From positions 372,001 to 436,000 of the forward strand of contig NZ_CP013106.1 of assembly GCF_001431725.1 (NCBI RefSeq): a stretch of 64,000 nucleotides of DNA. The letters are read 5' to 3'. How positions within the stretch are numbered: the first letter of the stretch is position 1; every line of letters begins with the position of its first letter. The stretch is from Halomonas huangheensis (GTDB taxonomy: Bacteria; Pseudomonadota; Gammaproteobacteria; Pseudomonadales; Halomonadaceae). The position numbers and the translations under genes were made by a program. Shown in pieces: positions 43,248 through 62,791 of the stretch. The notes beneath the pieces are model-generated. The model was not told the DNA's origin. It saw only the letters and a list, made by a program, of their open reading frames with translations, and did no database searches.

Positions 43248-43688
43248 TCACGGAAGACTCTCTGCGGGACCTGAATTCTGGGGGAGCGGTGCACATCGGC
43301 TGGGGTCGATGGCTGCGAGACGCAGGTAGTGGCCTTCCGGTAGTCGACAGGTTGCCACTCGCCAGGCGCACTGGTGCGACATACTGTTGGTGGACTCCTG
43401 AATACGAATGTCCTCCAGTAAGTGGCAGTAGTGCTCGAGGCGTTGACAAAGAACACCAAACTCGTCGTTGGCCACCTCAATATTGAAGATGCGTGGCGTG
43501 ACTGGGGCACTGGCCGCCAGCAGCATCAGCACGTGAGTATGCCCGTCGTTATCGGTTCCCAGTTCAAATGTCATGCCACTGGTGGTGTGAACCAATCGCC
43601 TCAGGCCAAGTACCTCCGCAAAGATTTCATTCATTGCTTGCAGGTTCTGGACTTCGACAGCACTGGGCTCTAGTGACAGATGTTGCAT
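43248..43688 (-). CDS. VOC-superfamily protein (glyoxalase/bleomycin-resistance fold)
   Basis: 146 aa from the ATG at 43688, preceded by TTGAGG. The sequence follows the VOC pattern: AMNEIFAEVLGLRRLVHTTSG, then IFNIEVANDEFGVLCQRL, and a C-terminal CAWRVATCRLPEGHYLRLAAID that resembles the closing strand of such domains. Metal ligands cannot be assigned with confidence. It lies 208 bases downstream of the crotonase on the same strand and may or may not belong to that operon. Confidence 0.6.
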   Translation of the reverse strand: MQHLSLEPSAVEVQNLQAMNEIFAEVLGLRRLVHTTSGMTFELGTDNDGHTHVLMLLAASAPVTPRIFNIEVANDEFGVLCQRLEHYCHLLEDIRIQESTNSMSHQCAWRVATCRLPEGHYLRLAAIDPSRCAPLPQNSGPAESLP

Positions 43689-43896
43689 GGTATTCGCCTC
43701 AAGGCGAGCTAACGCAAATAAGATAAGTAAGGAAGGTTCGTCGGGAAGTATGGTCTGTTGGTGCACATCGTGCCGGTGAATCCTGACTATCAAGGCCATT
43801 GAACACTGTAATTCGAGGACCTTGACGTCGATGGCGTGAGGCATTGTGTTCCAGAAGCCCAGTGCAGACGTCACCATCACTCGCGCCAGATAGCTG

Positions 43897-44664
43897 TCAC
43901 CGTTTCAGGAAGATCGCCTCACGCTTCTCTGCGAAGGCGGCACGGCCTTCGTCAGCATCTGCGGTTGCGAAGCAGATGGTCTGGAGATCACGTTCGTAGG
44001 CGACCGCTTGTTCCAGAGGCATATTGAAGGCGGCATGCAGATTGGCTTTGGCGGTTTCCGCTGCAATAGGTGCCCGTGCGGCGATCTGCTCGGCGACTTC
44101 CTCTGCGCGGGGAAGCAGCGTATCGGGTGGCATTATTTCGCTGACGAGCCCCCAGGCCAGTGATTGCTGTGCGGTGATGGACTCACCGGTCATGACCATG
44201 AGGGCTGCGTTTGACGGACCAATGGAACGTGCCAGGTGTGCTGTCATGCCGCCGCCACCGATCCATCCGAGTTTGACTTCAGGGGCCGCCAGGCGAGCGC
44301 TATCGGCGGCGAGGCGAATATCGCAGGACATGGCCATCTCCAGTCCGCCGCCGAATGCATAGCCGTTGATGGCGGCGATGCTCGGCTTTTTCAGCCCCCG
44401 CAGCAGATCGCAGTATTCTGTACGATTCCGGAAGTCCCAGGGTGTGGTGTATGAGTTCAGAAGCGCAATATCCGAGCCTGCGCAAAAGGCTTTTCCAGTT
44501 CCGGTCACAATGACCGTTCTAATGCCATTCTCAGAATTACAGTAGTCGATCGCGTCCTTGAGTAGGGATGCCATCTCTGGCGTCATGGCATTGAGCTTTT
44601 CGGGGCGGTTATAGGTGATCGTGGCGACGTGGCCATTGGTTGTCAGCGTTAATGGCTGGCTCAT
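43897..44664 (-). CDS. Enoyl-CoA hydratase/isomerase (crotonase) family protein
   Basis: 255 aa. The crotonase oxyanion-hole segments CAGSDIALLNSY and AAINGYAFGGGLEMAMSCDIRLAAD are clear, followed by PEVKLGWIGGGGMTAHLARSIG. The family hydrates, isomerises, dehydrates or cleaves CoA thioesters. It is the last gene of the seven-gene operon; its ATG overlaps the stop of the binding-protein-like gene by one base. A CoA-ester substrate supplied by the CaiB protein is inferred. Confidence 0.92.
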   Translation of the reverse strand: MSQPLTLTTNGHVATITYNRPEKLNAMTPEMASLLKDAIDYCNSENGIRTVIVTGTGKAFCAGSDIALLNSYTTPWDFRNRTEYCDLLRGLKKPSIAAINGYAFGGGLEMAMSCDIRLAADSARLAAPEVKLGWIGGGGMTAHLARSIGPSNAALMVMTGESITAQQSLAWGLVSEIMPPDTLLPRAEEVAEQIAARAPIAAETAKANLHAAFNMPLEQAVAYERDLQTICFATADADEGRAAFAEKREAIFLKR

Positions 44665-45800
44665 CAGTTCTTCCTCCCTTGATCCCGGTGTGACCGTTCA
44701 AACAGTGTGGTGAGATCCTGCGCCAGGCGATGTTCCGAAACACCGCCCTCCAGCCCTTCGCGCAGGCGTGCCGATGCTTGAGTTTGAAAAGCGATGTATC
44801 CGTTGTGGCGTGGGCGAATGCTGGCATGCCTTAGCGTGTGTAGCGTGTTGGCATAAAAGCCATTCCATCGTTGATTCAATTGCGGGTCACGCCAGCTTTT
44901 CAGAGCACTTGGCTGCCCCGCCTGTTGAGGGATGAAGTCCGTCTGGGCACTGTCACTGAGCAACCACAGCAGATGCTCACGCAAGGTATCGTCAAACTTG
45001 CAGTGACGTGAGATGGCGATTCCAGTGCCGCCTAGAATTGAGCCTGGCGAGGCACCTGACGACAGCCTCGGCGCATCAAGGAAACTCAACGCTCTCGATA
45101 AGGTGGGGTTGGCATAGTTTACGTAGCCGTAAACCAGGGGACACATGCGCACGTCGTCGCTTGTGGTCATGTGTTCCAGCATACCTATGGGATTCAGTGC
45201 TTGTATTGAAGGTGGTGAGTGAGATGCCAGTGTTGCGAGGATCTTGATGGCCTCACAGGAAACCGCGGCATCGATCCATCGATCGCCCTCACGCAGGTCA
45301 GCCTTCGGGTCGAGAGCGGCAGCGATGGAAAGCAATGAGAGCAGAGCGTGGGGCCCGGCCAGAGCCAGCGCCACCCCGCCCTGGGTCTGTGATAGCGCGA
45401 TGACCTGCTCCCATGTCTCGGGAACCGCTGTGGTCATCAGGTCCGTGCGGGCAGCCATGACTTGGGTGGCGGCATCCAATGGAAGTGCCCATTGGTGGCC
45501 TTGATACTGATAGCTGGCATAGCTGAGTCCAACCGATGAGGTGGCGATCCGCTGAAGATCATTGTCTTCCAGTATCTGATCCAACGGTATCAGGCATCCC
45601 GAGCTGACGGCTTCACCAAGATGAGGATGGTCCAGTACTATCAGGTCGTAGCGTTCGCACAGTTCCGCGACAGGAGCAGACTCGAAGCCCTCCAGAGGAT
45701 GTGTTTCCCAGTGGACGGGACCGTTTGCTCGGGCCGCCGCCTCAAGGGCTTGAAACCCTCGGGGGTGGTCCCAGGTCAGTCCGGTGAAAGGTGCGCTCAT
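44664..45800 (-). CDS. Solute-binding-protein fold without an export signal, operon-encoded
   Basis: 378 aa, beginning MSAPFTGLTWDHPRGFQAL with no hydrophobic leader, so it should stay in the cytoplasm. The body resembles ABC-type sugar-binding proteins: YDLIVLDHPHLGEAV, IPLDQILEDND, YQGHQWALPLDAATQVMAAR, ETWEQVIALSQ. No ABC permease or ATPase is near. Both ends overlap neighbours: the CaiB-type gene's stop overlaps its ATG, and its own stop overlaps the crotonase ATG. A role in binding a CoA substrate, an effector, or a pathway intermediate is possible. I cannot assign a function. Confidence 0.75.
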   Translation of the reverse strand: MSAPFTGLTWDHPRGFQALEAAARANGPVHWETHPLEGFESAPVAELCERYDLIVLDHPHLGEAVSSGCLIPLDQILEDNDLQRIATSSVGLSYASYQYQGHQWALPLDAATQVMAARTDLMTTAVPETWEQVIALSQTQGGVALALAGPHALLSLLSIAAALDPKADLREGDRWIDAAVSCEAIKILATLASHSPPSIQALNPIGMLEHMTTSDDVRMCPLVYGYVNYANPTLSRALSFLDAPRLSSGASPGSILGGTGIAISRHCKFDDTLREHLLWLLSDSAQTDFIPQQAGQPSALKSWRDPQLNQRWNGFYANTLHTLRHASIRPRHNGYIAFQTQASARLREGLEGGVSEHRLAQDLTTLFERSHRDQGRKN

Positions 45801-46987
45801 GGGCGTTCCCCGAGCAATACGGCGCTGCCGAAGGCCGCTATTTCCTCGTCACTGAAACCGGCTTCGCGAAGGATTTCTTCGCTGTGTTCACCGGCCAGCG
45901 GTGCGCCGCGAGCGATGTGGCTCGGCGTCTTGCTGAAGCGGATCGGAAAGCCCGGTGTTTTCACTCGCCCCTCGGTTGGGTGGTCGTATTCCACGAAGGT
46001 AGCGTTATGCGCGATCTGAGGATCGGCTACGAGATCCGCGTACCCATACACCGGAGCGGCCCAGATACCATATTCCTCGAACTGGGCCATCCAGGCCTCG
46101 GTGTCCCGGGCCGGCAGTGACTCACGTACCAGTCGAAACAACTGATCGCGGTTGTTCCAGCCATCCTGTTCGTTGTCCATCTCCGCCAGCTTTGGCTGTT
46201 CAAGTGCTGCTCCCAGTTGTTGCAGGTCGGGCATGGCCAGCGCGATGAAACCGTCACGGGTCGCGAAGATGCCGTAGGGTGAGCGAATGTAGACATGCCC
46301 ATGAGGTTCGGCGCTGCGCTGCTGGGGTTTGCCTGCCACGGTAAATACCGACAGTTCCTGCATCTGCAGGGTGGTGATGGCGTCGAGCATGTTGACTTCC
46401 ACCTTCTGGCCTTCACCGGTGCGCTCACGGTGCAACAGGGCTGCCAGTACGCCCTCGAAGGCGGTGTACGCGGTGACTGCATCGACAAGGTACTGCCCGG
46501 CGGGCTGTGGGACTTCGCCTTCACGACCGCTGGAGAGCATGGCTCCGGACATGGCCTGCAACAGAAGGTCCTGCCCTGGGCGACGTGCGTAGGGGCCATC
46601 TTCACCGAAGCCTGACATGGAGACGTAGATCAGGTTCGGGTTGATCTCCGCGAGGCTTTCATAGTCGACACCTAGTCGTTGGGCCACGCCGGGTCGGTAG
46701 TTCTGTATAAAGACATCCGCTTCGGTGACCAGACGTCGAATGATGTCGCGGCCGGGGTCGCTTTTCAGGTTGACCGCGAGGGAGCGCTTGTTGCGATTCA
46801 ATGAAAGGAAAGACACGTTGATGCGGTTGCCATTGGCACCACCGGCCGGCATATGTCGTTGCCACTCACCGCTCACCGGTTCGATCTTGACCACATCGGC
46901 CCCCAGGTCACCGAGTCGCTGAGCAGCAAATGGGCCAGCCATGGCGATGGAACAGTCGAGGACTTTGTAGCCGTTCAATATTGTCAT
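45797..46987 (-). CDS. CaiB/BaiF family (class III) CoA-transferase
   Basis: 396 aa from the ATG at 46987 (AGGA site); a longer frame upstream looks non-coding. Family motifs are DLGADVVKIEPVSG, NRNKRSLAVNLK and the catalytic Asp140 in RPGQDLLLQAMSG. It moves CoA from one acyl-CoA to an acid. It follows the SDR by 14 bases and overlaps the binding-protein-like gene. It likely activates the acid produced by the upstream dehydrogenases. Confidence 0.93.
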   Translation of the reverse strand: MTILNGYKVLDCSIAMAGPFAAQRLGDLGADVVKIEPVSGEWQRHMPAGGANGNRINVSFLSLNRNKRSLAVNLKSDPGRDIIRRLVTEADVFIQNYRPGVAQRLGVDYESLAEINPNLIYVSMSGFGEDGPYARRPGQDLLLQAMSGAMLSSGREGEVPQPAGQYLVDAVTAYTAFEGVLAALLHRERTGEGQKVEVNMLDAITTLQMQELSVFTVAGKPQQRSAEPHGHVYIRSPYGIFATRDGFIALAMPDLQQLGAALEQPKLAEMDNEQDGWNNRDQLFRLVRESLPARDTEAWMAQFEEYGIWAAPVYGYADLVADPQIAHNATFVEYDHPTEGRVKTPGFPIRFSKTPSHIARGAPLAGEHSEEILREAGFSDEEIAAFGSAVLLGERP

Positions 46988-47001: not shown

Positions 47002-47781
47002 TTAGTTCATCATCCAGCCACCGTCTACCGGCAGGGTCTGGCCAGTAACGAAAGCTGAGGCGTCGGAGGCGAGGAATACGATGGCGGCGGCGATATCCGT
47101 GGCATTGCCTCGACGCTTGATCGCCTGGTGATCGAGCACGAACTGAGCGTATTGCTGTGGGTCGGGGTGAATCCTTTCTGCATCGGTGGGAAAGGCGCCA
47201 GGGGAAACTGCGTTGCAGGTGATGCCCCATTTACCGAATTCGCGAGCCCATGCCCGGGTCAGGCCCATCAGCGCGCCCTTTGACTGTACATAGGGCGAGA
47301 GATGCTCCCATCCGCCCGACAGCGTGATCGACGATATATTGATGATGCGCCCCCATCGCTGTGCACGCATGCCGGGCAGGGCGACCTTGGTGCAGGCCAG
47401 GGCTGCCTCTACATTGACGGCATGCACCTGGCGCATCTCTTCCAGGCTGTAGTCCTCGAACGGCTTGCTGGGATAGATGGCGGCGTTGTTGATGACGACA
47501 TCCAGTGCTTGATCCTGTGTCAGTTCCTGCAATCGATGGCTCAGGAGAACATGGTCCGCCAGGTCGATTTCCAGCAGGTGCAATTGCGCACGATGGGCTT
47601 CGGGAACTGCCGCATGCAGCCTGGCGACTTTGTCGCAGTCGTTATCGATGGCAATTACCATGGCGCCCATGGCCAGCATTTCCAGTGTCGTTTCAAGGCC
47701 CAGGCCACCCGCGGCACCGGTATAGAGAATGCGCTTCCCGGATAGGGAAAAGCGCTCGATAAGTGGTGATGCTGGTGTCAT
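47002..47781 (-). CDS. Short-chain dehydrogenase/reductase of the sugar-acid operon
   Basis: 259 aa classical SDR: the cofactor motif TGAAGGLG, NNAAIYPSKP, the catalytic serine in NISSITLSG, and YVQSK. The C-terminus reads GQTLPVDGGWMMN. It resembles gluconate-5-dehydrogenase or 3-oxoacyl reductase types. Its ATG overlaps the stop of the DUF4432 gene by four bases. Confidence 0.9.
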   Translation of the reverse strand: MTPASPLIERFSLSGKRILYTGAAGGLGLETTLEMLAMGAMVIAIDNDCDKVARLHAAVPEAHRAQLHLLEIDLADHVLLSHRLQELTQDQALDVVINNAAIYPSKPFEDYSLEEMRQVHAVNVEAALACTKVALPGMRAQRWGRIINISSITLSGGWEHLSPYVQSKGALMGLTRAWAREFGKWGITCNAVSPGAFPTDAERIHPDPQQYAQFVLDHQAIKRRGNATDIAAAIVFLASDASAFVTGQTLPVDGGWMMN

Positions 47782-48956
47782 GAGCGGCCTCCAATACGAC
47801 GGAAGTCACCGGATGGCGCTGGGTAATCCTCGGCAGGTTGTTGAGCGATGGCGGCAATGTGTTGTTCGCAACGGGCGATGGCAATATCCCCGTCGAGCAC
47901 ACTGAAGCGCGTCTGGTAGCAGCGCTCATCGCCATGTTCCAGCCAGATCATTTCTCCCCGATCGCGGGCACCGCTCTGACCAAGAACATGGTGTGTCGAG
48001 GGTTCGATACCCATGGCGTATTGTCCGGCCTGAAAGTTCTGCCACTGGAACTGGCAGGGAAATTGCGTCTTGCGAGTGGTGACGCACAGCCCCAGGCCAA
48101 GGCGGTCATTGACAAGAGCGCACGGCACCTGGTCGTCATCATCGCACCCCATTTCGTGTTCCCAGACCTGTTCGTGGAAGCGACGTTGTGGTGTAGGAGG
48201 CGTACGGTAGCCTACGTTCTGATCACGGTAGCCATCGGCGTGGGAAGCCCACACCACGTCACGTATAGGAGCCAGATAGCGGCTACCTTCGTCGAGCAGG
48301 GGATAGCCGAGATTGATGTGATAGCAGAGCATGTGCGGCGTGCGATAGAAGCCACGATTGACCACCCTATCGTTGAGCGTTATGGCATTGCTGCCGACCT
48401 CGATCTCGATGCGCCGATGCAGTTCCAGATGTTCGCCGAAGACCGCTCCCTGACGAATGATACCCTCGGCCCACAATAGACAGGTGTCACCGTCCCAGCG
48501 CTCTCCATAACCGGTGAGATGGGCAGGTATGGTTCCGACACGCCCGTGCAGTGATTGTTTTGCGACCTGCCGAGGGGCATAAACGTAGTTGTCCGTTGGT
48601 GCGTCATACATGAACAAGGTGTGGTCCAGGCCACAGGTGATCATGAAGCCGGAGAATGAGCGCATCCAGCCGAGCCCACCTTCGCCCTCATATTCATGCA
48701 GGCCTGGGTGTCGAAAGCCGGATGGTGAGTGCCAGCCGATGGCCTGACCTCGATATTCACAGTCGGCGATGTCCATGGCGCGATCCACCAGAACGGTGAA
48801 GCGCAGCCCAGTGCCGGAGCGGAATTCGAGCAGGCGAATGCCGCGTTCCACACCGTTTTCCAAGTGCATCAGCCGCACACCGGCAAACTGACCGAGATCG
48901 CCGGTGCGAGCTTCCAGGTCGTGGCGGCTGAGTGATTGGCCGTAAATGTCAGGCAT
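47778..48956 (-). CDS. DUF4432 / aldose 1-epimerase-like protein
   Basis: 392 aa from the ATG at 48956 (AGGGGG site); an upstream extension is non-conserved. The beta-sandwich resembles galactose mutarotases, with the conserved segments VDRAMDIADCEYRGQAIGW, GFMITCGLDHT and HINLGYPLLDEG typical of DUF4432. It may interconvert sugar anomers or isomerise a sugar acid. It is the third gene of the operon. Confidence 0.85.
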   Translation of the reverse strand: MPDIYGQSLSRHDLEARTGDLGQFAGVRLMHLENGVERGIRLLEFRSGTGLRFTVLVDRAMDIADCEYRGQAIGWHSPSGFRHPGLHEYEGEGGLGWMRSFSGFMITCGLDHTLFMYDAPTDNYVYAPRQVAKQSLHGRVGTIPAHLTGYGERWDGDTCLLWAEGIIRQGAVFGEHLELHRRIEIEVGSNAITLNDRVVNRGFYRTPHMLCYHINLGYPLLDEGSRYLAPIRDVVWASHADGYRDQNVGYRTPPTPQRRFHEQVWEHEMGCDDDDQVPCALVNDRLGLGLCVTTRKTQFPCQFQWQNFQAGQYAMGIEPSTHHVLGQSGARDRGEMIWLEHGDERCYQTRFSVLDGDIAIARCEQHIAAIAQQPAEDYPAPSGDFRRIGGRS

Positions 48957-49026: not shown

Positions 49027-49941
49027 CTAGACGCCGTTGGTGCGCAATTTTCCTTCCAGAAAACGCTTGGCCCGAGGGACGTCGCTCTCGTCCAGATGTT
49101 CAATGATGATCGGAATGTTGGGGTGCTTGCGGGCCAGACGCTGCAGGTAAAGGTCGTAGTTCAGCTCACCAAGTCCGGGGGCAGGTAACTCGATGTCTCC
49201 CACACCTCGAAAGGTGTGGCTCTCAGCCGCGCTGTCGTCACCGATATTGTGGTGCTTCTCGCTCTTGTCATCGCCCGAGCGTTTTACATCCTTGGCGTGA
49301 GCGATACATATCCTGTCCGAAAGGGCATCGAACACATGGTTCAAGGTCGCGTCCATTCTGTCGATGTTGTGGGCTTCGAAATAGTTGGTTGGGTCCATCA
49401 GAAGCCCCAGGCCGGGATGATCCACCTCGGCGAACATACGTAAGGTCTCCTCGACCGAACCAACCACGTTATTGACGTAGGTTTCCAACAGGAATACGGC
49501 TCCGTGGTCATAGGCATGTTGGGCCAGTTCAGCGATTACAGCGCGGCAATCGGCCCACCCTTCTTCGGTCTTGTTCCTGGGGTGGTGTGTCCAGTCACTG
49601 TCCGGATTGAAAGTGCCGGTTTCCGAGATGACATAGGGCGTACCCAGGTGGCGTGCATTGGCAATGATTTCCTTGAGCAGGGCGTTGCGTGATTGCCTCT
49701 CTCCGCTATCCGGGTGGACGATGTTGGTGTACGCAGATATCGCACAGATGGCTAGATGGTGGTCACGAAACGTATCTCGAATACGATCGCATTTTTCTCG
49801 GGTGATCTGGCCTGCCGAAAGGTCCATGTCCTTGAAGTGCATGTCCAACTGCACAGTATTGAAATCATGGCTGCGGATTACGCTGGCGGTTTTTTCCAAT
49901 TCGTAGGGGAAATAGCCCGAAAAGATTCCAGTCTGCATCAT
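49027..49941 (-). CDS. Sugar phosphate isomerase/epimerase family TIM barrel
   Basis: 304 aa. It matches the xylose-isomerase-like TIM barrel (AP_endonuc_2) family: the glutamates in ISETGTF and LLETYVNN, the Asp in LLMDPTNYFE, and the terminal Glu in IIIEHLDESD are likely metal ligands. Isomerisation or dehydration of a polyol or keto-sugar is expected. Two ATGs at 49941 and 49938 are possible; the first is eight bases from AGGAG. Confidence 0.88.
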   Translation of the reverse strand: MMQTGIFSGYFPYELEKTASVIRSHDFNTVQLDMHFKDMDLSAGQITREKCDRIRDTFRDHHLAICAISAYTNIVHPDSGERQSRNALLKEIIANARHLGTPYVISETGTFNPDSDWTHHPRNKTEEGWADCRAVIAELAQHAYDHGAVFLLETYVNNVVGSVEETLRMFAEVDHPGLGLLMDPTNYFEAHNIDRMDATLNHVFDALSDRICIAHAKDVKRSGDDKSEKHHNIGDDSAAESHTFRGVGDIELPAPGLGELNYDLYLQRLARKHPNIPIIIEHLDESDVPRAKRFLEGKLRTNGV

Positions 49942-50007: not shown

Positions 50008-51099
50008 TCAGTGTTGATCGATGAAGTCGGTGAAGTGCACCGTCCGGCCCGTATTGATGGATTGATAGGCAGCCTCCACCAGGGCCATGGTATGCACCGT
50101 ATCGGCGACACTGAGTACTGGCTCGGTGCCGCTGTGTACGGCGAACTGTAGTTGTTCCATGACGCCAATAAAGGCATGCGGGAACCACATGGTCTGCCAA
50201 CTCGGCGATATCCACTTTCCGTCGGTGTGCGTGCGGCTGGCGTAGCGAATAGTGGATGCTGCCCCCGTTGGCCAGCCGATGGTGCCCTGGGCGACCCCTT
50301 GAGTGCCTTCGACTCGCCAACGTATGTGTTGGTCATCTTGATAATTCTCGTCGCGTGGTCCCGACCAGACGTCTTCCAGGGACAGTGCCAGCAGGCCTGA
50401 TGGAAACCGTAGTGTCGTGACCACTATGCCGTCTTCATGCTCGAATTCGGTGCGTGGGTCGCAGCGAGTCACGCTGGTCACCTCCTGTGGCTCGCCGAAC
50501 AGGAAACGCAGAGCATCCAGGTGGTGAACGCTCATATTGGCCAACGTCAGGCGCTCATAGGTACTCAGGAACCCCTGCCAATGCGGTATGGCGTGCATAT
50601 CAATCTGCGCGAATACTGGCTCGCCCAGAACGCCGGCACGCAGTAACTGCGATAGCGAGCGAATGGACTGGTCATAGCGCATGTTCTGATTGACTGATAG
50701 AGGCTTACCGATCGCCGCCGCTTCATCACGAAGTTGCCGAGCTTCCTCCAGCGTCAGTGCCAGAGGTTTCTGCACTAGTATTGCCTTGATGTGTGGTGCG
50801 TGCAGGGCTGCGCGTATCAGCGCGGGTTGCTGGTCGGGAGGGTAGGCGATGTCCAGAATCTGGACCCGGGAGTCGTCGATCAATGCCTGCGGTGTATCGT
50901 AAACGGTATCGATCGACCAGCGTCTTGCTACTTTCTCAGCGTTGTCACGGGTGCGCGAGGCGATTGCACAGACGGAAAAGCCGGCTTCCTTATAGGCTGC
51001 CAAATGGCACTCGGCCATGATCATGCCTGCACCGATACAGCCGATTCGATAGTCGCGGACACGGACTTCCGGATCTGGTTGGAGAGTGAGTTCAGTCAT
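50008..51099 (-). CDS. Gfo/Idh/MocA-family NAD(P)-dependent oxidoreductase
   Basis: 363 aa. The N-terminal Rossmann motif is GCIGAGMIMAECHLAAY (residues 19-35), followed by QKPLALTLEEARQLRDEA, the usual EKP-type site (here QKP) for the conserved lysine. The C-terminal alpha/beta domain resembles inositol and glucose dehydrogenases. It oxidises a sugar or polyol. It is the first gene of the operon, divergent from lacI. Confidence 0.92.
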   Translation of the reverse strand: MTELTLQPDPEVRVRDYRIGCIGAGMIMAECHLAAYKEAGFSVCAIASRTRDNAEKVARRWSIDTVYDTPQALIDDSRVQILDIAYPPDQQPALIRAALHAPHIKAILVQKPLALTLEEARQLRDEAAAIGKPLSVNQNMRYDQSIRSLSQLLRAGVLGEPVFAQIDMHAIPHWQGFLSTYERLTLANMSVHHLDALRFLFGEPQEVTSVTRCDPRTEFEHEDGIVVTTLRFPSGLLALSLEDVWSGPRDENYQDDQHIRWRVEGTQGVAQGTIGWPTGAASTIRYASRTHTDGKWISPSWQTMWFPHAFIGVMEQLQFAVHSGTEPVLSVADTVHTMALVEAAYQSINTGRTVHFTDFIDQH

Positions 51100-51302: not shown

Positions 51303-51361
51303 TAATTGCCGTTATTAATGAATAATGATGTGTTTTGATGCTCTCGCTGAGAGGAGGCGTT

Positions 51362-52363
51362 GTGCGTACGACCATCAGTCAGATTGCTGAAGTATCCGGT
51401 TATTCACCGGCAACCGTTGACCGAGTTCTCAATGATCGCGCGGGCGTTCGATCGCGAACCCGAGACGCTATTCTGCAAACCGCGCATGAGCTGGGTTATT
51501 TCGGTCTTGCTTCGGCCTATGGCCCACCGGAAGTGGAAATGGATTTCCTGCTGCCTGCAGGTGACAACACCTTCATGCTGTTGCTGCGCAAGTTCATTAT
51601 TGAGGAGGCCACAAAGTACGCTGGTATCAAGCCACGTCTGCACCTCTACGAAGATTTCAATCCAGAGCATCTGGCGGAGCGATTGTTGGAGTTGCAAGGA
51701 CATACCGATGCCGTGGCTATCGTGATGCCGGATCACCCTTCAATACGTGAAGCGGTCAATCGTCTGGTGATAGGCGGTATCCACGTGGCGACGTTGGTCT
51801 CGGACTTGCCGTCACTCAACAAGATCGGTTACGTGGGAGTCGATAATCGAGCCGCAGGGCGTCTGGCTGGACTGCTTACCGGTCGATTTCTGAGGGATGA
51901 CCGTGAGCACGACGTCGCCGTCTTCATCGGCTTCGCCTCATACCGGGGCCATGAAGAGCGGGAGATGGGATTTCGTTCGATTCTGGCCCAGGATTATCCT
52001 CACCTGCGCATTCGTGACATCGTTCAAGTCAACGATGATCGCGAGCGAGCTTACGAGGAGACTCAGCGCCTGCTGATGAATGAGCCGCCGGCTGCTATCT
52101 ACAATATTGGTGCCGGCAATCAGGGAATAGCACGAGCCCTGCGTGACGCCGGTGCCAGCCCGGTATTCATTGCTCACGACTTGACCGAGGCGACCAAGGG
52201 CATGCTGATGGACAGGACGCTCGATGCGGTGATCGACCAGAACCCCAGAGTCGAGGCTCGTGAGGTCATCAAGTTGTTGGCGTCTGCGGTCAGAGGGGCA
52301 TGTGAGCCCTCGTATCCACCGCGCCTGCAGGTTGTGTTTCGCGAGAACATACCGGTGGTTTGA
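51362..52363 (+). CDS. LacI-family transcriptional regulator
   Basis: 333 aa from the GTG at 51362, close behind GAGGAGG. The HTH covers residues 3-25 (TTISQIAEVSGYSPATVDRVLNDRAG), and the hinge and sugar-binding core follow. An ATG eight codons earlier is less likely because the ribosome site lies after it. It is divergent from the seven-gene operon, which it probably represses until the sugar-type inducer appears. Confidence 0.92.
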   Translation: MRTTISQIAEVSGYSPATVDRVLNDRAGVRSRTRDAILQTAHELGYFGLASAYGPPEVEMDFLLPAGDNTFMLLLRKFIIEEATKYAGIKPRLHLYEDFNPEHLAERLLELQGHTDAVAIVMPDHPSIREAVNRLVIGGIHVATLVSDLPSLNKIGYVGVDNRAAGRLAGLLTGRFLRDDREHDVAVFIGFASYRGHEEREMGFRSILAQDYPHLRIRDIVQVNDDRERAYEETQRLLMNEPPAAIYNIGAGNQGIARALRDAGASPVFIAHDLTEATKGMLMDRTLDAVIDQNPRVEAREVIKLLASAVRGACEPSYPPRLQVVFRENIPVV

Positions 52364-52629: not shown

Positions 52630-52657
52630 TGATGCCATTCCTTGAGGAGAGGCATCA
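52630..52657 (+). other. RNA hairpin presenting the phnC ribosome-binding site
   Basis: TGATGCC (52630-52636) pairs with GGCATCA (52651-52657), whose last base is the A of the phnC ATG. The 14-base loop contains the GAGGAG ribosome site. Translation of phnC could be affected by this structure. Confidence 0.4.
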
Positions 52658-53511
52658 TGTCCATTCCCACGATCATCGTTGAGCAACTCAACAAGACATT
52701 TGGCCATCGACGCGTGCTCGATGGTATCAGTTTCAACGTCACTCCCGGCGAAATGGTCGCCCTGATTGGTCCTTCCGGCTCGGGAAAATCGACCCTGTTA
52801 CGTCATCTGGTGGGCCTGACCTGTGGCAACCGCGGCGAGGGAGGGCGTGTCTCGGTCATGGGCCGTGATGTGCAGATGTCGGGCCGTATGCGCCGCGCCA
52901 GTCGTGGTGAACGCTGTCGCACCGGGTACATCTTCCAGCAGTTCAATCTGGTGGGCCGACTCAGTGTGATGACCAATGTGCTGATCGGCGGCCTCGGCAG
53001 TATGCCCCGTGGGCGTGCCGTACTGGGACGTTTCTCGGCGGAAGAGCGGCAGCGCGCCCGCGAATGCCTGGCGCGGGTAGGGCTGGAGGAGCTGGCCGAG
53101 CAACGCGCCAATACCCTTTCCGGTGGTCAGCAGCAGCGTGTCGCCATTGCTCGGGTGCTGATGCAGGACGCCGAGATCATCCTCGCCGACGAGCCCATCG
53201 CTTCTCTTGATCCGCGTAGTGCCCGTGAAGTCATGGAAATCCTCGAACGCATCCACCAGGAAGATGGCCGCACGGTAGTCGTGACCCTTCATCAGGTTGA
53301 GGTGGCCCGCCGCTACTGCAAACGTGCGATTGCTCTCAAGGAAGGGCGTCTGTATTTCGATGGTCCGACTCATGAGCTCACCGATGGTCGTCTACAGACA
53401 CTGTACGAGAACGCTGGTCTCGACGAACTCCGCGCATCGGCGAATACCGGTGACGCCACTGAACCTGCCCGGGCACCCGCCATGGCCAGGGTGCAGGTAG
53501 CGCATAGCTGA
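52657..53511 (+). CDS. phnC: Phosphonate ABC transporter ATP-binding protein
   Basis: 284 aa ABC ATPase from the ATG at 52657. Walker [10 protein letters not shown] (residues 37-45), the signature [15 protein letters not shown] and Walker [11 protein letters not shown] are all intact. With PhnD and PhnE it imports phosphonates across the inner membrane. It is the first gene of the phn operon, behind Pho boxes and a PhnF-type operator. Confidence 0.96.
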
Positions 53512-53582
53512 GTGCTGATGCTGCCTGTAAACGATAACAAACTGTCCTTACGCATCCCTCTTATCCATCAGGAGTAACTTTC

Positions 53583-54608
53583 ATGGCACTCGCCTCCCTG
53601 CGTCGCCTGACTCTGCCATTGATTGCTGGTTTCAGCCTCGCTGCTGTTTCTCAGTTGGCAGCCGCCGATACCCTCAAGTTCGGCATCATTTCCACCGAAG
53701 CCAGCCAGAATCAAGCCCCCCTGTGGGAGCCTTTCCTCGAGGCAATGTCCGAGGAAATCGGCATGGAAATCGAGCCGTACTTTGCCACTGACTATGCCGC
53801 GGTTATCCAGGCGATGCGCTTCGATCAGATCGATCTCGCCTGGTATGGCAACAAGTCGGCGATGGAAGCGGTAGACCGTGCCGATGGTGAAGTTTTCGCG
53901 CAGACGGTACCTGACAATGGCCAGCCGGGTTACTGGAGCTTGATGATTGTCAATCAGGACAGTGATCTGCACAGCATCGAGGACGTGCTGGCCAATGCCG
54001 CCGATCTGGTATTCGGCAATGGCGACCCGAACTCGACTTCCGGTTATCTGGTGCCTGGCTACTACGTGTTCGCCGAGAACAACGTCGATGCTTCCACAGC
54101 CTTCAAGCGCACCTTGAACTCCAGCCATGAGACCAATGCGTTGGCGGTGGCCAATCACCAGGTTGATGTCGCCACTTTCAATACCGAGGGCATGGAGCGT
54201 CTCGAAATCACCGCGCCGGAAAAGGCCGAGCAACTGCGTGTGATCTGGAAGTCGCCGTTGATTCCTTCCGACCCGCTGGTGTGGCGCAAGGATCTGGATG
54301 AGGACACCAAGCAGAAGTTACGTGACTTCCTGTTCAGCTATGGCGATAGCGACGCTGAGCGTGAGGTTCTGGCACCGCTGCAGTGGGCGCGTTTCGATGA
54401 GTCGAGCAACGATCAACTGTTGCCGATCCGCCAACTGGAGCTGTTCAAGCAGCGTTCCAGCATCGCGGGTGACCAGAGTCTCGATGACAGCGAGCGACAG
54501 CAGAAGTTGGCCGAGATTGATGCCCAGCTTGATCAACTCGGCGAGCGTATGAAGGAGATCCAGGCAGCCGATGCTGACTCCACGTCGGATAGCGTCAACG
54601 CGGGCTGA
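53583..54608 (+). CDS. phnD: Phosphonate ABC transporter substrate-binding protein
   Basis: 341 aa. The signal peptide spans about residues 1-28 (cleavage after AAA). The mature part begins [16 protein letters not shown], with the phosphonate-binding segments [11 protein letters not shown] and [15 protein letters not shown]. It captures phosphonates in the periplasm for PhnCE. A strong hairpin follows the gene, which would favour high PhnD levels relative to PhnE. Confidence 0.96.
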
Positions 54609-54621
54609 TCGGCCCGAGCCG

Positions 54622-54643
54622 GAGAGCGCCTGCGGGCGCTCTC
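54622..54643 (+). other. mRNA hairpin between phnD and phnE
   Basis: A perfect 9-bp GC stem (54622-54630 with 54635-54643) with a TGCG tetraloop and no T-run. Such structures after binding-protein genes protect the upstream mRNA from 3' decay. This suits the higher amount of PhnD needed. Confidence 0.65.
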
Positions 54644-54667
54644 GCATGCTGCTTCGCAGGAGAAATC

Positions 54668-55462
54668 ATGACTACCCAGACTTCCATATCCAGTATCCAG
54701 CAGCCGCCAAAGCGCAGTTGGGCCACGCTGTTGAGCTGGTTCGTGGCCATCAGTGTACTGGCCTGGGCATGGCAGGGCGTCGAGATGCAGCCCAGCCTGT
54801 TGGTCACCAACGCCGACAACATGGCCACTCTTGCGGGAGATTTCTTTCCGCCGGCGTTCGGCAACCTTGGACACTATATTGACCAGATGATGGTCACGAT
54901 CCAGATCGCCATCTGGGGCACATTGCTGGCGATCATCGTCGCAGTCCCGTGCAGCCTGTTGTCCTCCGAGAACCTGGCTCCATGGTGGGTCTACCAGCCC
55001 ATGCGGAGGTTGATGGATGCCACGCGCGCCATCAATGAGTTGGTGTTCGCCATGTTGTTCGTGGTGGCGGTAGGGCTGGGGCCCTTTGCCGGGACTCTGG
55101 CGCTGTTCGTGCACACCACCGGTGTGCTGGCCAAACTGTTCTCCGAGGCCGTGGAAGCCAGTGAGGCAGGGCCGATGGAGGGCATTCGTGTGACAGGCGC
55201 TGGGCGTATCGAGGAAATCGTCTTCGGCTTGATCCCTCAAGTATTACCGCTGTGGATCTCGGTAAGTCTGTATCGCTTCGAATCGAATATCCGCTCGGCC
55301 ACGGTACTGGGAATGGTCGGCGGCGGGGGTATCGGCGTCGCGCTGTGGGAGACCATGCGCGGTTTCCAGTATGCCGAGACGGCGACCATCATGCTGGTGA
55401 TCATCATTGCCGTGACAGTGCTCGATATGGCCTCCCAGAGGGTCCGCAAGCGCTTCATCTAG
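54668..55462 (+). CDS. phnE: Phosphonate ABC transporter permease
   Basis: 264 aa with about six hydrophobic segments. The ABC permease EAA-type loop is visible as [21 protein letters not shown]. An AGGAG site lies before the ATG. It is the only permease of the operon, as in most species. Confidence 0.95.
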
Positions 55463-55551
55463 ACTGTTGGACACAGCTCGGTGGAATACAGCGATGTATG
55501 GCTTCGGTAGGCAATGGAGGACAGCAGATGGTCTTTATTCAAGGAGCGAAC

Positions 55552-55563
55552 ATGTCTAGACAA
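55552..55563. promoter_or_regulatory. Second PhnF-type operator, overlapping the phnF start codon
   Basis: ATGTCTAGACAA matches the TTGTCTAGACAA palindrome upstream of phnC at 11 of 12 positions. It includes the phnF ATG itself. Binding here would repress phnF and the genes beyond it, giving autoregulation inside the operon. Confidence 0.55.
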
Positions 55564-56322
55564 CTGGCCCGACAGGACGCCGGACCACGCTATCGCCAAC
55601 TGGCGGACATTCTCGCCAGAGAAGTGCGTACCGAATACGTTCCGGGCGATCTGTTGCCCAGTGAGTCGGTGCTGGCAAGACGCTTTGCGGTCAACCGCCA
55701 TACCGTGCGTCGGGCACTCGATGAACTGGTGGCGGCGGGCATGGTCACGCGTCATCAGGGATTGGGTACCCAGGTGGTCGATCGCCGTCTCGACTACAGC
55801 GTCAGTGCCGGCAGCAAGGTGACCCACAATCTCGCCGAGCAGGGCATCAATACCGACAGCCGCTGCCTGAGCCAGGCCCTGGTCAAACCACCGGAAGCGA
55901 TTGCCCAGCGCTTTGGGCTTGCTGAGGACCAACAGTTGCTGTGCGTCGACACTCTGAGATTGGTCGATGAGGTTGCCATGATGCGACTGCGCCACTGGTT
56001 TGATCCCGCCAGGGTGCCGGGCTGGACCCAACGCTATCGCGGCGGCTCCACCCGCGCCCTGCTCGATCAACACTACGGCCTGCGTCTGATGCGTTCCCGC
56101 GTACGTATCGAAGCCTGCCAGGCCGACGCTGAAGACTGCCGATTGCTGCAGTGCCCCCATTATGCGCCGTTGCTGACCTTGACCAGCGACAACGTCGACG
56201 CCGAGGGGCGTCTGGTCGAGGTCTCGGTGAGTCGTGCGCGTGCCGACCGGCTGGCCTACCACGTGGACTTTTCCGGCGCTGATTTCGACAAGAATCCCAT
56301 CGTGGATCCTGATCAGAGTTAA
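55552..56322 (+). CDS. phnF: Phosphonate operon repressor, GntR/HutC family
   Basis: 256 aa from the ATG at 55552, which has an AAGGAG site; a start at 55528 is less supported. The N-terminal winged helix is residues 12-75 (YRQLADILAREVRTEYVPGDLLPSESVLARRF), and a UTRA effector domain follows. It probably represses the operon when phosphonate or phosphate signals are absent. It lies between phnE and phnG as in E. coli. Confidence 0.93.
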   Translation: MSRQLARQDAGPRYRQLADILAREVRTEYVPGDLLPSESVLARRFAVNRHTVRRALDELVAAGMVTRHQGLGTQVVDRRLDYSVSAGSKVTHNLAEQGINTDSRCLSQALVKPPEAIAQRFGLAEDQQLLCVDTLRLVDEVAMMRLRHWFDPARVPGWTQRYRGGSTRALLDQHYGLRLMRSRVRIEACQADAEDCRLLQCPHYAPLLTLTSDNVDAEGRLVEVSVSRARADRLAYHVDFSGADFDKNPIVDPDQS

Positions 56323-56348
56323 TACCGCTACCAGGACGAGGTTTCCTC

Positions 56349-56780
56349 ATGACTCCAACACAACGTCACCGCGTGCTTGCGCTGACGCCTCATACACGGC
56401 TGCTGAGTGTCTGGCAGACACTGGGCATTCAGACCAGTCACCGTTGTGTGCGTGGCCCCGAAACCGGCATGGCCATGGTACGTGGCCGCATGGGGGGCTC
56501 CGGCAGTGCCTTCAATCTCGGTGAAATGACCCTGACTCGCGCCAGTGTGATGCTGGAAGACGGCAGTCTCGGCCATGGCTGGGTGGCGGGCCGCGACCAG
56601 GATCAGGCCGAATTGATCGCGCTGATCGATGCCTGTGCCCGCCATGAAAGCTGGGCACGTCGTATCGACACGGAGCTGGTCGAGCCGCTGGCCCAGGCGC
56701 TGGAAGAGGAGCGCGCCCAGGCGTCGCGCCAGGCCGCAGCAACCCGCGTCGATTTCTTCACCATGGTGCGAGGGGAATGA
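56349..56780 (+). CDS. phnG: C-P lyase core subunit PhnG
   Basis: 143 aa. The segment GPETGMAMVRGRMGGSGSAFNLGEMTLTRASV is characteristic of PhnG, shown here as its position at residues 38-69. PhnG is part of the PhnGHIJ core complex that turns a phosphonate and ATP into a ribose 1-phosphonate 5-triphosphate. phnH starts within its stop codon. Confidence 0.95.
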   Translation: MTPTQRHRVLALTPHTRLLSVWQTLGIQTSHRCVRGPETGMAMVRGRMGGSGSAFNLGEMTLTRASVMLEDGSLGHGWVAGRDQDQAELIALIDACARHESWARRIDTELVEPLAQALEEERAQASRQAAATRVDFFTMVRGE

Positions 56781-57439
56781 GCATGAATACGCGCGCAACG
56801 ACCAGCAGCACCGCGAACCAGAATCCTGGTCAGCGTTGGCCGATGCTTGACGATGGCGTTCACCATCCGCAGCGCCTGTTTCGTCAATTGCTCGGCGCGA
56901 TGTCCGAGCCCGGCACGCTGCAGACATTGAGTATCGATGACCTCCCCGCCGATGCGCAGCTGTCGCCTGCAGCCTGGGCCACCGTGCTCACGCTCTGCGA
57001 CCTCGATACTCGCCTGTGGATCGACCCACGCCTCGAGACATCGGGGCTGCGTGAGGCGGTGGCGTTCCAGACCGGTGCTGCAATTACCGAGGTGCCCGCA
57101 GACGCCGACTTCGCATTGGTGGTACCGCAGACCCTTGTGGAAATCACTGACTTTGCCATCGGCAGTGATGCCTGGCCCGACCGCAGCACCACCTTGATCG
57201 TGGTGGCCGAACAACTCGCCGAAGGTAACGACTGGCGGCTCACTGGCCCCGGCATCGCCGATCACCGCAGCCTGGCCCTCGGTGGCCAGGTCGCGCCACT
57301 GATGTGGCGCCTGGCGGCCAATCACAACTGCTTCCCGCGTGGCCTCGATGCGTTCATCACCAGTGGCTATCAACTGCTGTCGATTGCCCGCAGCACCCGC
57401 ATTGCTGCCGGAAATGGCCAGACCGAGGAGAACGCCTGA
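56777..57439 (+). CDS. phnH: C-P lyase core subunit PhnH
   Basis: 220 aa. Typical motifs include DDGVHHPQRLFRQLLGAMSEPG, FQTGA and FPRGLDAFITS. It forms the dimerising core subunit of the C-P lyase. The ATG at 56777 overlaps the phnG stop; the second ATG at 56783 is better spaced from AGGGG and may be the true start, giving a protein two residues shorter. Confidence 0.94.
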   Translation: MSMNTRATTSSTANQNPGQRWPMLDDGVHHPQRLFRQLLGAMSEPGTLQTLSIDDLPADAQLSPAAWATVLTLCDLDTRLWIDPRLETSGLREAVAFQTGAAITEVPADADFALVVPQTLVEITDFAIGSDAWPDRSTTLIVVAEQLAEGNDWRLTGPGIADHRSLALGGQVAPLMWRLAANHNCFPRGLDAFITSGYQLLSIARSTRIAAGNGQTEENA

Positions 57440-58575
57440 TGTACGTAGCCGTGAAAGGGGGCGAGAAGGCGATTGCCAACGCCCATCAGTGGATGGCGGA
57501 TCGCCGCAGAGGCGATCGTGAGCAGGCAGAAATAGGCGTCGACCAGGTGCAGCAACAGCTGGGGCTGGCGGTGGACAGGGTCATGGCCGAGGCCTCGCTG
57601 CATGATCCCGAACTGGCGGCACTGGCGCTGAAACAGGCCAGTGGCGATATGGTCGAGGCGGTGTTCCTGCTGCGTGCCTACCGCACTACCTTGCCGAGAC
57701 TGGCCGAGACCTGTCCGCTGGATACCGGTGCCATGCATATCGAGCGGCGCATCAGCGCCACCTTCAAGGATGTGCCGGGCGGCCAGGTGCTGGGGCCAAC
57801 CTACGATTACACCCATCGCCTGTTGGACTTCATGTTGCTTGCCGAAGGAGAAGCTCCCGAGGCCGAGCGCGCCGAGGCAGCGCTGGAACGTTGTCCGCAG
57901 ATTCTCGACTGCCTCAATGCCGAAGGGCTGATCGAGCAGGAAGTCGATGATGGCAGTGTGCCCTATGACATCACCCGTGACCCACCCGACTTTCCCGTCG
58001 ATCGTGCCACCCGTCTGCAGATGCTGGCGCGGGGCGACGAGGGCTACCTGTTGGCGCTGGGTTACTCGACGCAGCGCGGCTATGGCCGCAACCACCCCTT
58101 CGCCGGGGAGATTCGTCAGGGCAGCGTGGAAGTCGAGATCGAGGTGGAGGGCTTCGAAGGCCCGCTCTGCATCGGTGAGATAACGCTGACCGAGTGCCAG
58201 ATGATCAACCAGTTCGGGGGCTCGCGGGAGAAGGCACCGCAGTTCACTCGCGGATACGGGCTGGCCTTCGGACGCAACGAGCGCAAGACCATGGCCATGG
58301 CGCTGGTCGATCGTGCCCTGCGTGCCGAGGAACTGGGCGAGTCGATCCAGAGCCCGGCCCAGCAGGCCGAGTTTGTGCTGGCCCATACCGACAGTGTCGA
58401 GGCCTCGGGGTTTGTCTCGCACCTCAAGTTGCCGCACTACGTCGACTTCCAGTCCGAGCTGGAACTGCTGCGTCGCCTGCGCCGTGAGCACGCCGAGCGT
58501 CAGTCGAGCGAGCCGGTGAGCAGGGAATCGATGGCCCGTGATGAAACCGCCGGGACCGAGGAGACCGCACAATGA
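57439..58575 (+). CDS. phnI: C-P lyase core subunit PhnI (nucleosidase)
   Basis: 378 aa from the ATG at 57439; an upstream frame is spurious. The N-terminal MYVAVKGGEKAIANAHQWM and the central SASLHDPELAALALKQASGD-like segment match PhnI. It replaces the adenine of ATP with the phosphonate. The start overlaps the phnH stop, and phnJ overlaps its end. Confidence 0.96.
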   Translation: MYVAVKGGEKAIANAHQWMADRRRGDREQAEIGVDQVQQQLGLAVDRVMAEASLHDPELAALALKQASGDMVEAVFLLRAYRTTLPRLAETCPLDTGAMHIERRISATFKDVPGGQVLGPTYDYTHRLLDFMLLAEGEAPEAERAEAALERCPQILDCLNAEGLIEQEVDDGSVPYDITRDPPDFPVDRATRLQMLARGDEGYLLALGYSTQRGYGRNHPFAGEIRQGSVEVEIEVEGFEGPLCIGEITLTECQMINQFGGSREKAPQFTRGYGLAFGRNERKTMAMALVDRALRAEELGESIQSPAQQAEFVLAHTDSVEASGFVSHLKLPHYVDFQSELELLRRLRREHAERQSSEPVSRESMARDETAGTEETAQ

Positions 58576-59438
58576 CCACCGCCAACCACAGCGCTGCCAG
58601 CACAACAGCGGGCTACAACTTTGCCTACCTCGATGAGCAGACCAAGCGCATGATTCGTCGTGCCCTGCTCAAGGCGGTGGCGATTCCCGGCTATCAGGTG
58701 CCCTTCGGTGGGCGTGAAATGCCGATGCCCTATGGCTGGGGGACCGGCGGCATGCAGTTGACCGCCAGCATCCTCGGCGCCGATGACGTACTCAAGGTCA
58801 TCGACCAGGGCGCCGACGACACCACCAATGCGGTGAGCATTCGCGCCTTCTTCGAGCGTGTCGCAGACGTCGAGACCACCACCGAGACGGCGAAGGCCAG
58901 TGTGATCCAGACCCGTCACCGCATCCCCGAGAAGACGTTGAGCAAGGACCAGATCCTGGTTTTTCAGGTGCCGATTCCCGAGCCGCTGCGCTTTATCGAG
59001 CCCAGCGAGGAGGAAACGCGGGTGATGCATGCGCTGGAGGAGTACGGCGTCATGCACGTCAAACTCTACGAGGACATCGCTCGCCACGGACATATCGCCA
59101 CCACCTATGCCTACCCGGTCAAGGTCGATGGCCGCTATGTGATGGACCCGTCGCCGATTCCCAAGTTCGACAACCCCAAGCTGCACATGAGCGAGGCGCT
59201 TATGCTGTTCGGCGCGGGACGCGAGAAGCGGCTCTATGCCATTCCTCCGCATACCCGGGTCGAGAGCCTCGACTTCGAGGATCACCCGTTCGAGATCCAG
59301 GCCTGGGATGAGCCCTGTGCGCTGTGCGGTGCCACCGACAGCTATCTCGATGAGGTCATCACCGATGATGCCGGCGGTCGCATGTTTGTCTGCTCGGATA
59401 CTGATTACTGCCAGTCTCGTCGCGAGGAGGTGGCATGA
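58572..59438 (+). CDS. phnJ: C-P lyase catalytic subunit PhnJ (radical SAM)
   Basis: 288 aa. The C-x2-C-x21-C-x5-C motif is exact: Cys249, Cys252 and Cys274 should hold the [4Fe-4S] cluster and Cys280 is the thiyl radical residue (E. coli Cys241, 244, 266 and 272). PhnJ homolytically cleaves the carbon-phosphorus bond, releasing an alkane and 5-phosphoribosyl 1,2-cyclic phosphate. A GAGGAG site lies before the ATG. Confidence 0.97.
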   Translation: MTTANHSAASTTAGYNFAYLDEQTKRMIRRALLKAVAIPGYQVPFGGREMPMPYGWGTGGMQLTASILGADDVLKVIDQGADDTTNAVSIRAFFERVADVETTTETAKASVIQTRHRIPEKTLSKDQILVFQVPIPEPLRFIEPSEEETRVMHALEEYGVMHVKLYEDIARHGHIATTYAYPVKVDGRYVMDPSPIPKFDNPKLHMSEALMLFGAGREKRLYAIPPHTRVESLDFEDHPFEIQAWDEPCALCGATDSYLDEVITDDAGGRMFVCSDTDYCQSRREEVA

Positions 59439-60274
59439 AGCGCCCTATGCATACTCATTCCAGACCAGCGCGTCCCGAGCTGACACGCTCCGCATTGCTC
59501 GAGGCACGCGATATCACCCGGCTCTACGGCCCCGGCAAGGGCTGTGAGCAGATCGATTTCCGCCTGCACCAGGGTGAGGTGCTGGGCATTGTCGGCGAAT
59601 CCGGTTCCGGCAAGTCGACCCTGCTGCGAGTACTGTCGGGGTTGGAAAGGCCCGATGCCGGCCAGGTCATCTATCACAGCGATATCGACGGTTCCGCCGG
59701 ACAGTCCGGTGCCCTTGATCTTTATGCCATCAGCGAGGCGCGCCGCCGTGCCCTGCTGCGGATGGAGTGGGGGCTGGTTCACCAGAACCCGCGCGATGGT
59801 CTGCGACTTGGCGTATCCGCCGGTGCCAATGTCGGCGAGCGCTTGATGGCACTGGGCCAGCGCCACTACGGCAATCTGCGCGCCGCCGGACAGGACTGGA
59901 TGGCGCGTGTCGAACTCGACCCTCAACGTATCGATGATGCACCGCAGACCTTCTCCGGCGGCATGCAGCAACGCCTGCAGATTGCGCGCACCCTGGTGAC
60001 TCAGCCACGGCTGGTGTTTATGGATGAGCCGACCGGTGGGCTGGATGTCTCGGTACAGGCGCGCCTGCTCGATATGCTGCGTACCCTGACGCGTGAGTTG
60101 GGGCTGTCGGTGGTGCTTGTCACCCATGACCTCGCGGTAGCCCGTCTGCTGGCCCACCGCCTGATGGTGATGCGGCGTGGTCGAGTGGTCGAGGCTGGGC
60201 TCACCGATCAGATTCTTGATGATCCGCAGCATCCTTACACCCAACTGCTGGTGTCTTCGGTGCTGACTCCCTGA
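59435..60274 (+). CDS. phnK: C-P lyase accessory ABC-type protein PhnK
   Basis: 279 aa ABC ATPase: Walker A GESGSGKST, signature FSGGMQQRLQIARTL and Walker B VFMDEPTGGLD. PhnK docks on the C-P lyase core and has no permease partner. Its ATG overlaps the phnJ stop and has a GAGGAGG site. Confidence 0.95.
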   Translation: MKRPMHTHSRPARPELTRSALLEARDITRLYGPGKGCEQIDFRLHQGEVLGIVGESGSGKSTLLRVLSGLERPDAGQVIYHSDIDGSAGQSGALDLYAISEARRRALLRMEWGLVHQNPRDGLRLGVSAGANVGERLMALGQRHYGNLRAAGQDWMARVELDPQRIDDAPQTFSGGMQQRLQIARTLVTQPRLVFMDEPTGGLDVSVQARLLDMLRTLTRELGLSVVLVTHDLAVARLLAHRLMVMRRGRVVEAGLTDQILDDPQHPYTQLLVSSVLTP

Positions 60275-60302
60275 GTCACCGTCATATCTTGTGGAGCCTG
60301 AC

Positions 60303-62191: not shown

Positions 62192-62757
62192 TGGCCAGGC
62201 TCGTTTATCTGATCGGTGCCAGTGGCGTCGGCAAGGACACGCTACTGGATGCCGCACGTGAGGCTCGCAGTGATTGGCTGGTAGCCCATCGCTACATCAC
62301 TCGCCCCAGTGGTAGAGGGGAGAACAGCGTGGCCTTGTGTGAATCCGAGTTCGCGGTGCGCCGCGAGCTAGGGTTGTTCTGCCTCGACTGGTGCGCGCAT
62401 GGACTCTGCTATGGCGTGGGCAGAGAGGTCGAGGAATGGTGCCGACGTGGGGCCACGGTGTTGCTCAATGGTAGTCGTCGGGCCTTGCCTCAAGCTCGTG
62501 AACGTTTCGGTGAAGCGCTGGTTCCGGTGGTAATCACGGCGCCATCGGAGGTGCTCAGGCAACGTCTAGTGCAGCGCGGTCGTGAGGGGAACGAGGAAAT
62601 CCAGCGGCGCCTGGCTCGTCATGCGAAGGTCGAGGCGGAGCTGGTGCGCGACTTTCCCGGACTGCCACGTATCGATAACGGCGGCAGCATCGAGGCCAGC
62701 CTGTCGGCATTGGCAGCCGTAATTGATGGTCGTTCAGGGTATTCGTATCAGGGCTGA
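62191..62757 (+). CDS. phnN: Ribose 1,5-bisphosphate phosphokinase
   Basis: 188 aa guanylate-kinase-like P-loop protein: GASGVGKDTLL at residues 9-19. It makes PRPP from ribose 1,5-bisphosphate. Its ATG shares a base with the phnM stop. It has the usual length. Confidence 0.93.
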   Translation: MARLVYLIGASGVGKDTLLDAAREARSDWLVAHRYITRPSGRGENSVALCESEFAVRRELGLFCLDWCAHGLCYGVGREVEEWCRRGATVLLNGSRRALPQARERFGEALVPVVITAPSEVLRQRLVQRGREGNEEIQRRLARHAKVEAELVRDFPGLPRIDNGGSIEASLSALAAVIDGRSGYSYQG

Positions 62758-62791
62758 GAATCGGCAGTTTTAAAGGACGGAGAGTCGCGCC

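Follow-up and report, generated by a model that had tools for sequence, protein, structure and literature searches.

The locus described here raises the question of why a protein resembling the binding component of a sugar importer should be made without a leader and be encoded between the genes of two CoA enzymes. It lies in a 64,000-nucleotide stretch of the Halomonas huangheensis genome, referred to below as the window, in which a gene on the minus strand (44664..45800) encodes a leaderless 378-amino-acid protein of the type II solute-binding-protein (SBP) fold, which we call cSBP. The upstream neighbour, a CaiB/BaiF family III CoA-transferase gene (45797..46987, minus strand; Pfam CoA_transf_3, 6.3e-108), shares 4 nucleotides with it, the CaiB stop and the cSBP start overlapping in an ATGA sequence (45797..45800, minus strand), while the cSBP stop and the start of the downstream gene, which encodes a 255-amino-acid crotonase of the enoyl-CoA hydratase family (ECH; 43897..44664, minus strand; Pfam ECH_1, 2e-61), overlap by 1 nucleotide in a TGATG sequence (44664..44664, minus strand). 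Both overlaps had been reported in a first-pass annotation of the sequence, and they are indeed present; its further claim that they enforce equal translation goes beyond what the overlaps show. Directly downstream of the crotonase gene there is a 210-amino-acid ORF (43248-43880, minus strand) with no Pfam match.

Further upstream, four more genes of the minus strand are presumed members of the same operon, encoding an SDR dehydrogenase (47002..47781), a DUF4432 protein (47778..48956; annotated as 'aldose 1-epimerase family' in relatives), a xylose-isomerase-like TIM barrel (AP_endonuc_2; 49027..49941) and, as the presumed first gene, a Gfo/Idh/MocA oxidoreductase (50008..51099); the starts of CaiB (MTILNGYKVLD) and DUF4432 were assigned by reading their ORFs. 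Presumably, these seven tightly packed, co-directional genes form one operon in the order Gfo/Idh/MocA, TIM barrel, DUF4432, SDR, CaiB, cSBP, crotonase, with cSBP as the sixth gene. A LacI-family regulator gene with its own periplasmic-binding-protein-like sensor domain is divergent to it (51335..52363, plus strand), and a phosphonate cluster unrelated to cSBP, with genes for an ABC ATPase, a phosphonate-binding protein, a permease, PhnH and others, occupies 52642-63571 on the plus strand. By Pfam and annotation, none of the operon genes encodes an ABC permease or ATPase, as had been noted before. Base composition gave no sign of an island, GC being 0.56-0.60 across the operon and 0.57-0.64 on either side, with 0.525 in the bin containing the LacI gene. 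Since no full-length cSBP match was found in the 36 same-genus genomes searched, nine of which held short partial matches (26-37 bits, 78-89 residues), the operon is accessory in the genus.

The assignment to the SBP fold, which had been made from sequence pattern only, was confirmed by modelling. The window protein matched SBP_bac_8 with 44.6 bits (Pfam cut-off 27), and its AlphaFold2 model (80-row alignment; pLDDT 96.0, pTM 0.94), together with structure searches, revealed a complete two-lobed type II fold spanning its whole length, of which about 350-365 residues align structurally with LpqY, SmoF and MalE3. The first strand of the model starts at residue 5, and the best structural matches cover residues 1-4 to about 375; according to the model, cSBP is the mature portion of a binding protein, without anything extra. 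Family-specific, near-invariant residues are W10, H12, R14, H58-P59-G62, W104, Y226, Y229, Q296, R329 and R331. Several conserved residues are found at strand ends or strand-to-helix turns in the model, and the set as a whole would suit an anionic ligand.

There is also no room for a signal peptide in the window protein, because its frame spans just 394 codons from stop to stop and holds no start codon upstream of the cSBP start. We then compared its relatives. Once low-scoring or short pieces had been taken out, 127 different full-length genes were left of 130 rows; genome contigs contributed 17 of them, plasmids 11 and a genome sample 99, the window copy included. All 127 proteins carry the motif [TA]W.[HD].R[GCA] at the first strand, and its distance from the first possible start of the longest conceivable ORF is at most 16 residues in 86 of them, 17-45 in 16 and more than 45 in 25. 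No credible leader was found in any of these full-length relatives; a hydrophobic stretch precedes the motif in L048 only, and we do not consider it genuine, since translation could begin at a start codon close to the motif. A hydrophobicity test of the first 45 residues flagged 35 of the 38 secreted SBPs taken from these loci as controls, as against 1 of 37 cSBPs tested. Likewise, the motif lies near the start in all of the best 120 of 3112 homologues, in 119 as detected by pattern and in P0014 by eye. A missed signal peptide is thus ruled out by the lack of an upstream start and by the leaderless relatives, and the earlier observation that the protein has no leader extends to the family.

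The neighbourhoods of the relatives, many of them seen with only 1.5-3 kb of flank, point to CaiB as the preferred companion. A CaiB gene on the same strand lies within 200 nucleotides of cSBP in 108 of the 127 members, on the upstream side in 92 of these and on the downstream side in the other 16, which bears out the expectation that leaderless homologues would be found beside CaiB. Where CaiB is upstream, the exact 4-nucleotide overlap recurs in 73 of 92 loci, and 91 of 92 show an overlap or a gap of at most 2 nucleotides. The association depends on similarity, being present in 100 of 108 members at 350 bits or above versus 8 of 19 below. The order Gfo, TIM, DUF4432, SDR, CaiB, cSBP, crotonase was also found in alpha- and betaproteobacteria, and CaiB-cSBP-crotonase in Prauserella and Streptomyces; Actinomycetota and Chloroflexi cSBPs were covered by part of the searches. 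In a second cSBP branch, about 38% identical, CaiB directly precedes or follows cSBP, and genes for MaoC, rhamnose mutarotase and mandelate-racemase-like proteins are often nearby, joined in L057 by a fuconate dehydratase gene. In S. medicae, a bare CaiB-cSBP pair with the 4-nucleotide overlap is flanked by genes unrelated to it, those of an IS110 transposase and a lysozyme. The proposed linkage to CoA enzymes is upheld. In other members, the position of the crotonase gene is taken by MaoC, SDR or other genes, and the crotonase is thus not a constant part of the unit. In several relatives, all components of an ABC importer are encoded near cSBP, including a distinct SBP of the RbsB or MalE type, so that uptake at these loci does not require cSBP.

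Same-strand CaiB within 200 nucleotides is absent in 19 of the 127 members, several of which are divergent (below 350 bits) and adjoin SDR, UxuA, IclR or FAH genes. In L183 and L170, CaiB is on the opposite strand, 156 nucleotides and 2.2 kb away, and in L050 and L146 the order is CaiB-ECH-cSBP. L051-L053 (the same loci as L064-L066, which have longer flanks) carry cSBP followed by IclR, with UxuA (mannonate dehydratase; Pfam-checked in two of the three) upstream and CaiB about 6.4 kb away; their motif reads AWDHRRC as against TWDHPRG. L116 and L117 show the order DUF4432, SDR, cSBP, ECH, FAH with no CaiB between SDR and cSBP. In the Chloroflexi contig L027 (region 27-2286), cSBP follows, with an overlap of 8 nucleotides, an AMP-binding, acyl-CoA-synthetase-type gene standing in the place of CaiB, so that its neighbour is again an enzyme of CoA activation; the cSBP of L028, also from Chloroflexi, is found among sugar-acid-type genes. 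L016 has cSBP between a MalG-like permease gene and another ABC system, with a separate secreted-type SBP also present, and the divergent L174, L177, L178, L180-182 and L184 are near SDR, zinc-ADH, IclR, amidohydrolase or other genes.

The CaiB that accompanies cSBP belongs to PF02515 over its full length in the window and contains the Asp of the YLVDAVTA motif, which we take to be the catalytic residue of family III CoA-transferases. Because this column is D in 107 of 107 cSBP-adjacent CaiBs, the partner enzyme looks active as far as its sequence tells. We found cSBP in 18 of 398 genomes of the phylum, and the matching CaiB subfamily occurs in exactly these 18 (hypergeometric 1.5e-31, kinship ignored). 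In these searches at most four first-look candidates per genome were scored, and the subfamily thresholds were chosen after gaps in the scores were seen: with the second-branch CaiB, 19 places scored at least 403 bits, spread over 15 genomes, and the next score was 248, and the window CaiB gave 5 places at 603 bits or more in G000, G336, G360 and G375, followed by 3 at 297-301 and a gapless series from 273 down. Of the resulting 27 places, 23 are within 1.2 kb of cSBP, 3 are about 6.4 kb away, and a single one, in G336, has no cSBP nearby. The latter is a first-branch CaiB-crotonase pair (L244, 6717-8826), another such pair occurs in the second locus of L058, and both G336 and the L058 plasmid carry another cSBP elsewhere. 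L244 is an operon of the same type from which cSBP is naturally absent, and would offer a natural case for judging whether such an operon can do without it.

We also built a CaiB tree. It comprised 81 rows (14 duplicate copies removed, midpoint root, support values from a quick search), among them 35 cSBP-adjacent CaiBs, to which the 107 had been reduced at 80% identity, and CaiBs of 11 cSBP genomes. The 35, together with 11 others from cSBP loci, formed one group (SH-aLRT 96), while 34 of the 35 CaiBs encoded at other places in these 11 genomes fell outside it. The sole exception, L202, is a two-part frame of 624 residues whose placement is unsure (branch length 4); the branches of L202 and L203 exceed 4. 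Over 32 loci, mean identity was 0.59 for cSBP versus 0.78 for CaiB and 0.73 for ECH, indicating that cSBP diverges faster than either. Its divergence tracks that of ECH and CaiB alike (Spearman 0.81 and 0.80), and co-divergence therefore does not single out CaiB.

A length-shifted search also revealed ORFs in which the two proteins are fused. P0129 consists of CaiB (12-383) followed by cSBP (409-775) and P0130 of cSBP (2-376) followed by CaiB (396-768), both halves being complete in each; P0129 is 71% identical to the CaiB of the window and 46% identical to P0001. In P0142, P0143 and P0144, CaiB, linker and cSBP are joined in frame, and the cSBP half later runs out of frame. All five are single-member clusters, and an erroneous frameshift within a short overlap of the two genes could account for P0129. 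AlphaFold2 modelling of P0129 as a monomer with a thin unpaired alignment gave well-folded halves (pLDDT 91) with no fixed mutual placement (pTM 0.59). The ECH-cSBP fusions P0134 and P0135, as well as P0145, were discounted, as they read like frameshifted metagenome sequence, and P0140 (554 amino acids) proved to be a long member with low-complexity insertions and no CaiB part.

Given the pairing, the co-occurrence, the grouping of the partner CaiBs and the fusions, we favour, on this sequence evidence, a functional unit of CaiB and cSBP. In our reading, which we hold with a probability of roughly 0.6, cSBP derives from the binding protein of a sugar importer, has lost its leader and now serves as the cytoplasmic partner of a dedicated CaiB subfamily. 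Repurposing as a cytoplasmic partner had been suggested from the window alone, and adjacency, co-occurrence and fusions support it in that the partner would be the CoA-transferase. CaiB depends on an acid as well as a CoA donor, and the SBP fold is made for catching a ligand reversibly; the likeliest role of cSBP would therefore be to capture an acid, or its thioester, for CaiB. We infer from these relations a physical complex, ligand binding by cSBP, hand-over to CaiB and a sugar-acid substrate, sugar-derived acids being suggested by the sugar-type oxidoreductases, mutarotases, sugar-acid dehydratases and FAH-type hydrolases encoded nearby. In such a scheme, cSBP would close in the cytoplasm on an acid made by the operon's oxidoreductases, or on the CoA thioester of that acid, and present the acid to CaiB, which would move CoA onto it; the resulting acyl-CoA would then be acted on by the crotonase or, in other members, by a hydratase of the MaoC type. 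We tentatively propose, as a possibility that we would not yet back, that the two proteins form a two-component CoA-transferase. The binding-protein fold, which delivers sugar to a permease in ABC importers, would here deliver an acid derived from sugar to a cytoplasmic enzyme within a CoA-thioester route of sugar-acid breakdown, the steps of which would be oxidation, CoA activation, action of crotonase or MaoC, and cleavage.

It is conceivable, if unlikely, that cSBP is itself an enzyme, its two-lobed fold holding a catalytic site that acts on a sugar lactone, an acid or an acyl-CoA near the CaiB step. The conserved polar and charged residues H12, R14, D57, H60 and D109, invariant or nearly so in the 80-sequence alignment (H60 is below 93% in a wider one), are perhaps more than ligand recognition requires, and some members adjoin SDR, UxuA or MR genes without CaiB. 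However, D57 and D109 are nearly invariant also in the 24 secreted SBPs compared, the fusions and the co-occurrence indicate CaiB, and among the 50 matches listed per fold search there were only binding proteins or their fusions and no enzyme of this fold.

We regard it as improbable that cSBP is an intracellular sensor whose substrate-bound form switches on CaiB or a regulator without handing over its ligand. SBP-type domains do act as sensor domains too (PMC9602780), and LacI or IclR regulator genes are present at many cSBP loci; yet the LacI protein of the operon already has a sensor domain of its own, and it is CaiB, not any one class of regulator, that recurs as the neighbour. Nor does much speak for a mere hitch-hiker of the operon, in which case cSBP would be what is left of an SBP without its leader, retained through linkage and not specifically tied to CaiB. 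Such a remnant would fit the two subfamily CaiB loci that have no cSBP and the faster evolution of cSBP relative to its neighbours, but cSBP has been retained at full length and with its invariant residues across Pseudomonadota, Actinomycetota and Chloroflexi contigs, and CaiB occurs on either side of it, with fusions in both orders. Finally, that cSBP is an ordinary secreted transport SBP with a missed leader or another export route is hardly credible, since, despite the MalG-like permease gene beside it in L016 and the database name 'extracellular solute-binding protein', none of the 127 members has a credible leader, the fold of the window protein begins at residue 5, cSBP is found fused to a cytoplasmic-type enzyme, and several loci, L016 included, have a separate secreted-type SBP.

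Where cSBPs have been given a name, it is that of extracellular solute-binding or multiple-sugar-transport substrate-binding proteins, and they are thus credited with a transport capacity that they very likely lack. Should cSBP indeed be the partner of CaiB, this would provide a clear example of an importer's binding protein that has become a subunit delivering substrate to an enzyme of the cytoplasm, and would hint at a CoA-dependent sugar-acid pathway in rhizobia, roseobacters, bordetellae and actinobacteria.

Among known systems, the window CaiB compares with the family III CoA-transferases (CaiB/BaiF; formyl-CoA transferase, succinate-glutarate and succinyl-CoA:mesaconate enzymes), with which it shares PF02515 and the motif Asp. 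It scores highest with the succinate-glutarate and mesaconate CoA-transferase models and remains far under all matched NCBIfam equivalog cut-offs (for example 232 versus 750 bits), and thus represents a subfamily of its own. To our knowledge, no known family III CoA-transferase has a partner of the binding-protein fold, and in the open-access PMC literature we found neither a report of an SBP-fold partner of a CoA-transferase nor such a CoA-thioester route of sugar-acid breakdown. Cytosolic single-domain proteins matching SBP Pfam models have been acknowledged as a class with alternative functions, about 1% of the automatically retrieved SBP-model proteins being predicted as cytosolic (PMC9602780); unlike for cSBP, the passages concerned name no CoA-transferase partner or fusion for them. 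The closest known systems to cSBP are the type II (cluster B) sugar SBPs, such as LpqY, SmoF, MalE3 and the trehalose/maltose-binding protein (SBP_bac_8/SBP_bac_1), from which it differs in having neither a signal peptide nor a permease in the window operon, in its family-specific TWxHPRG and DHPHxGEA motifs, and in being paired or fused with a CoA-transferase.
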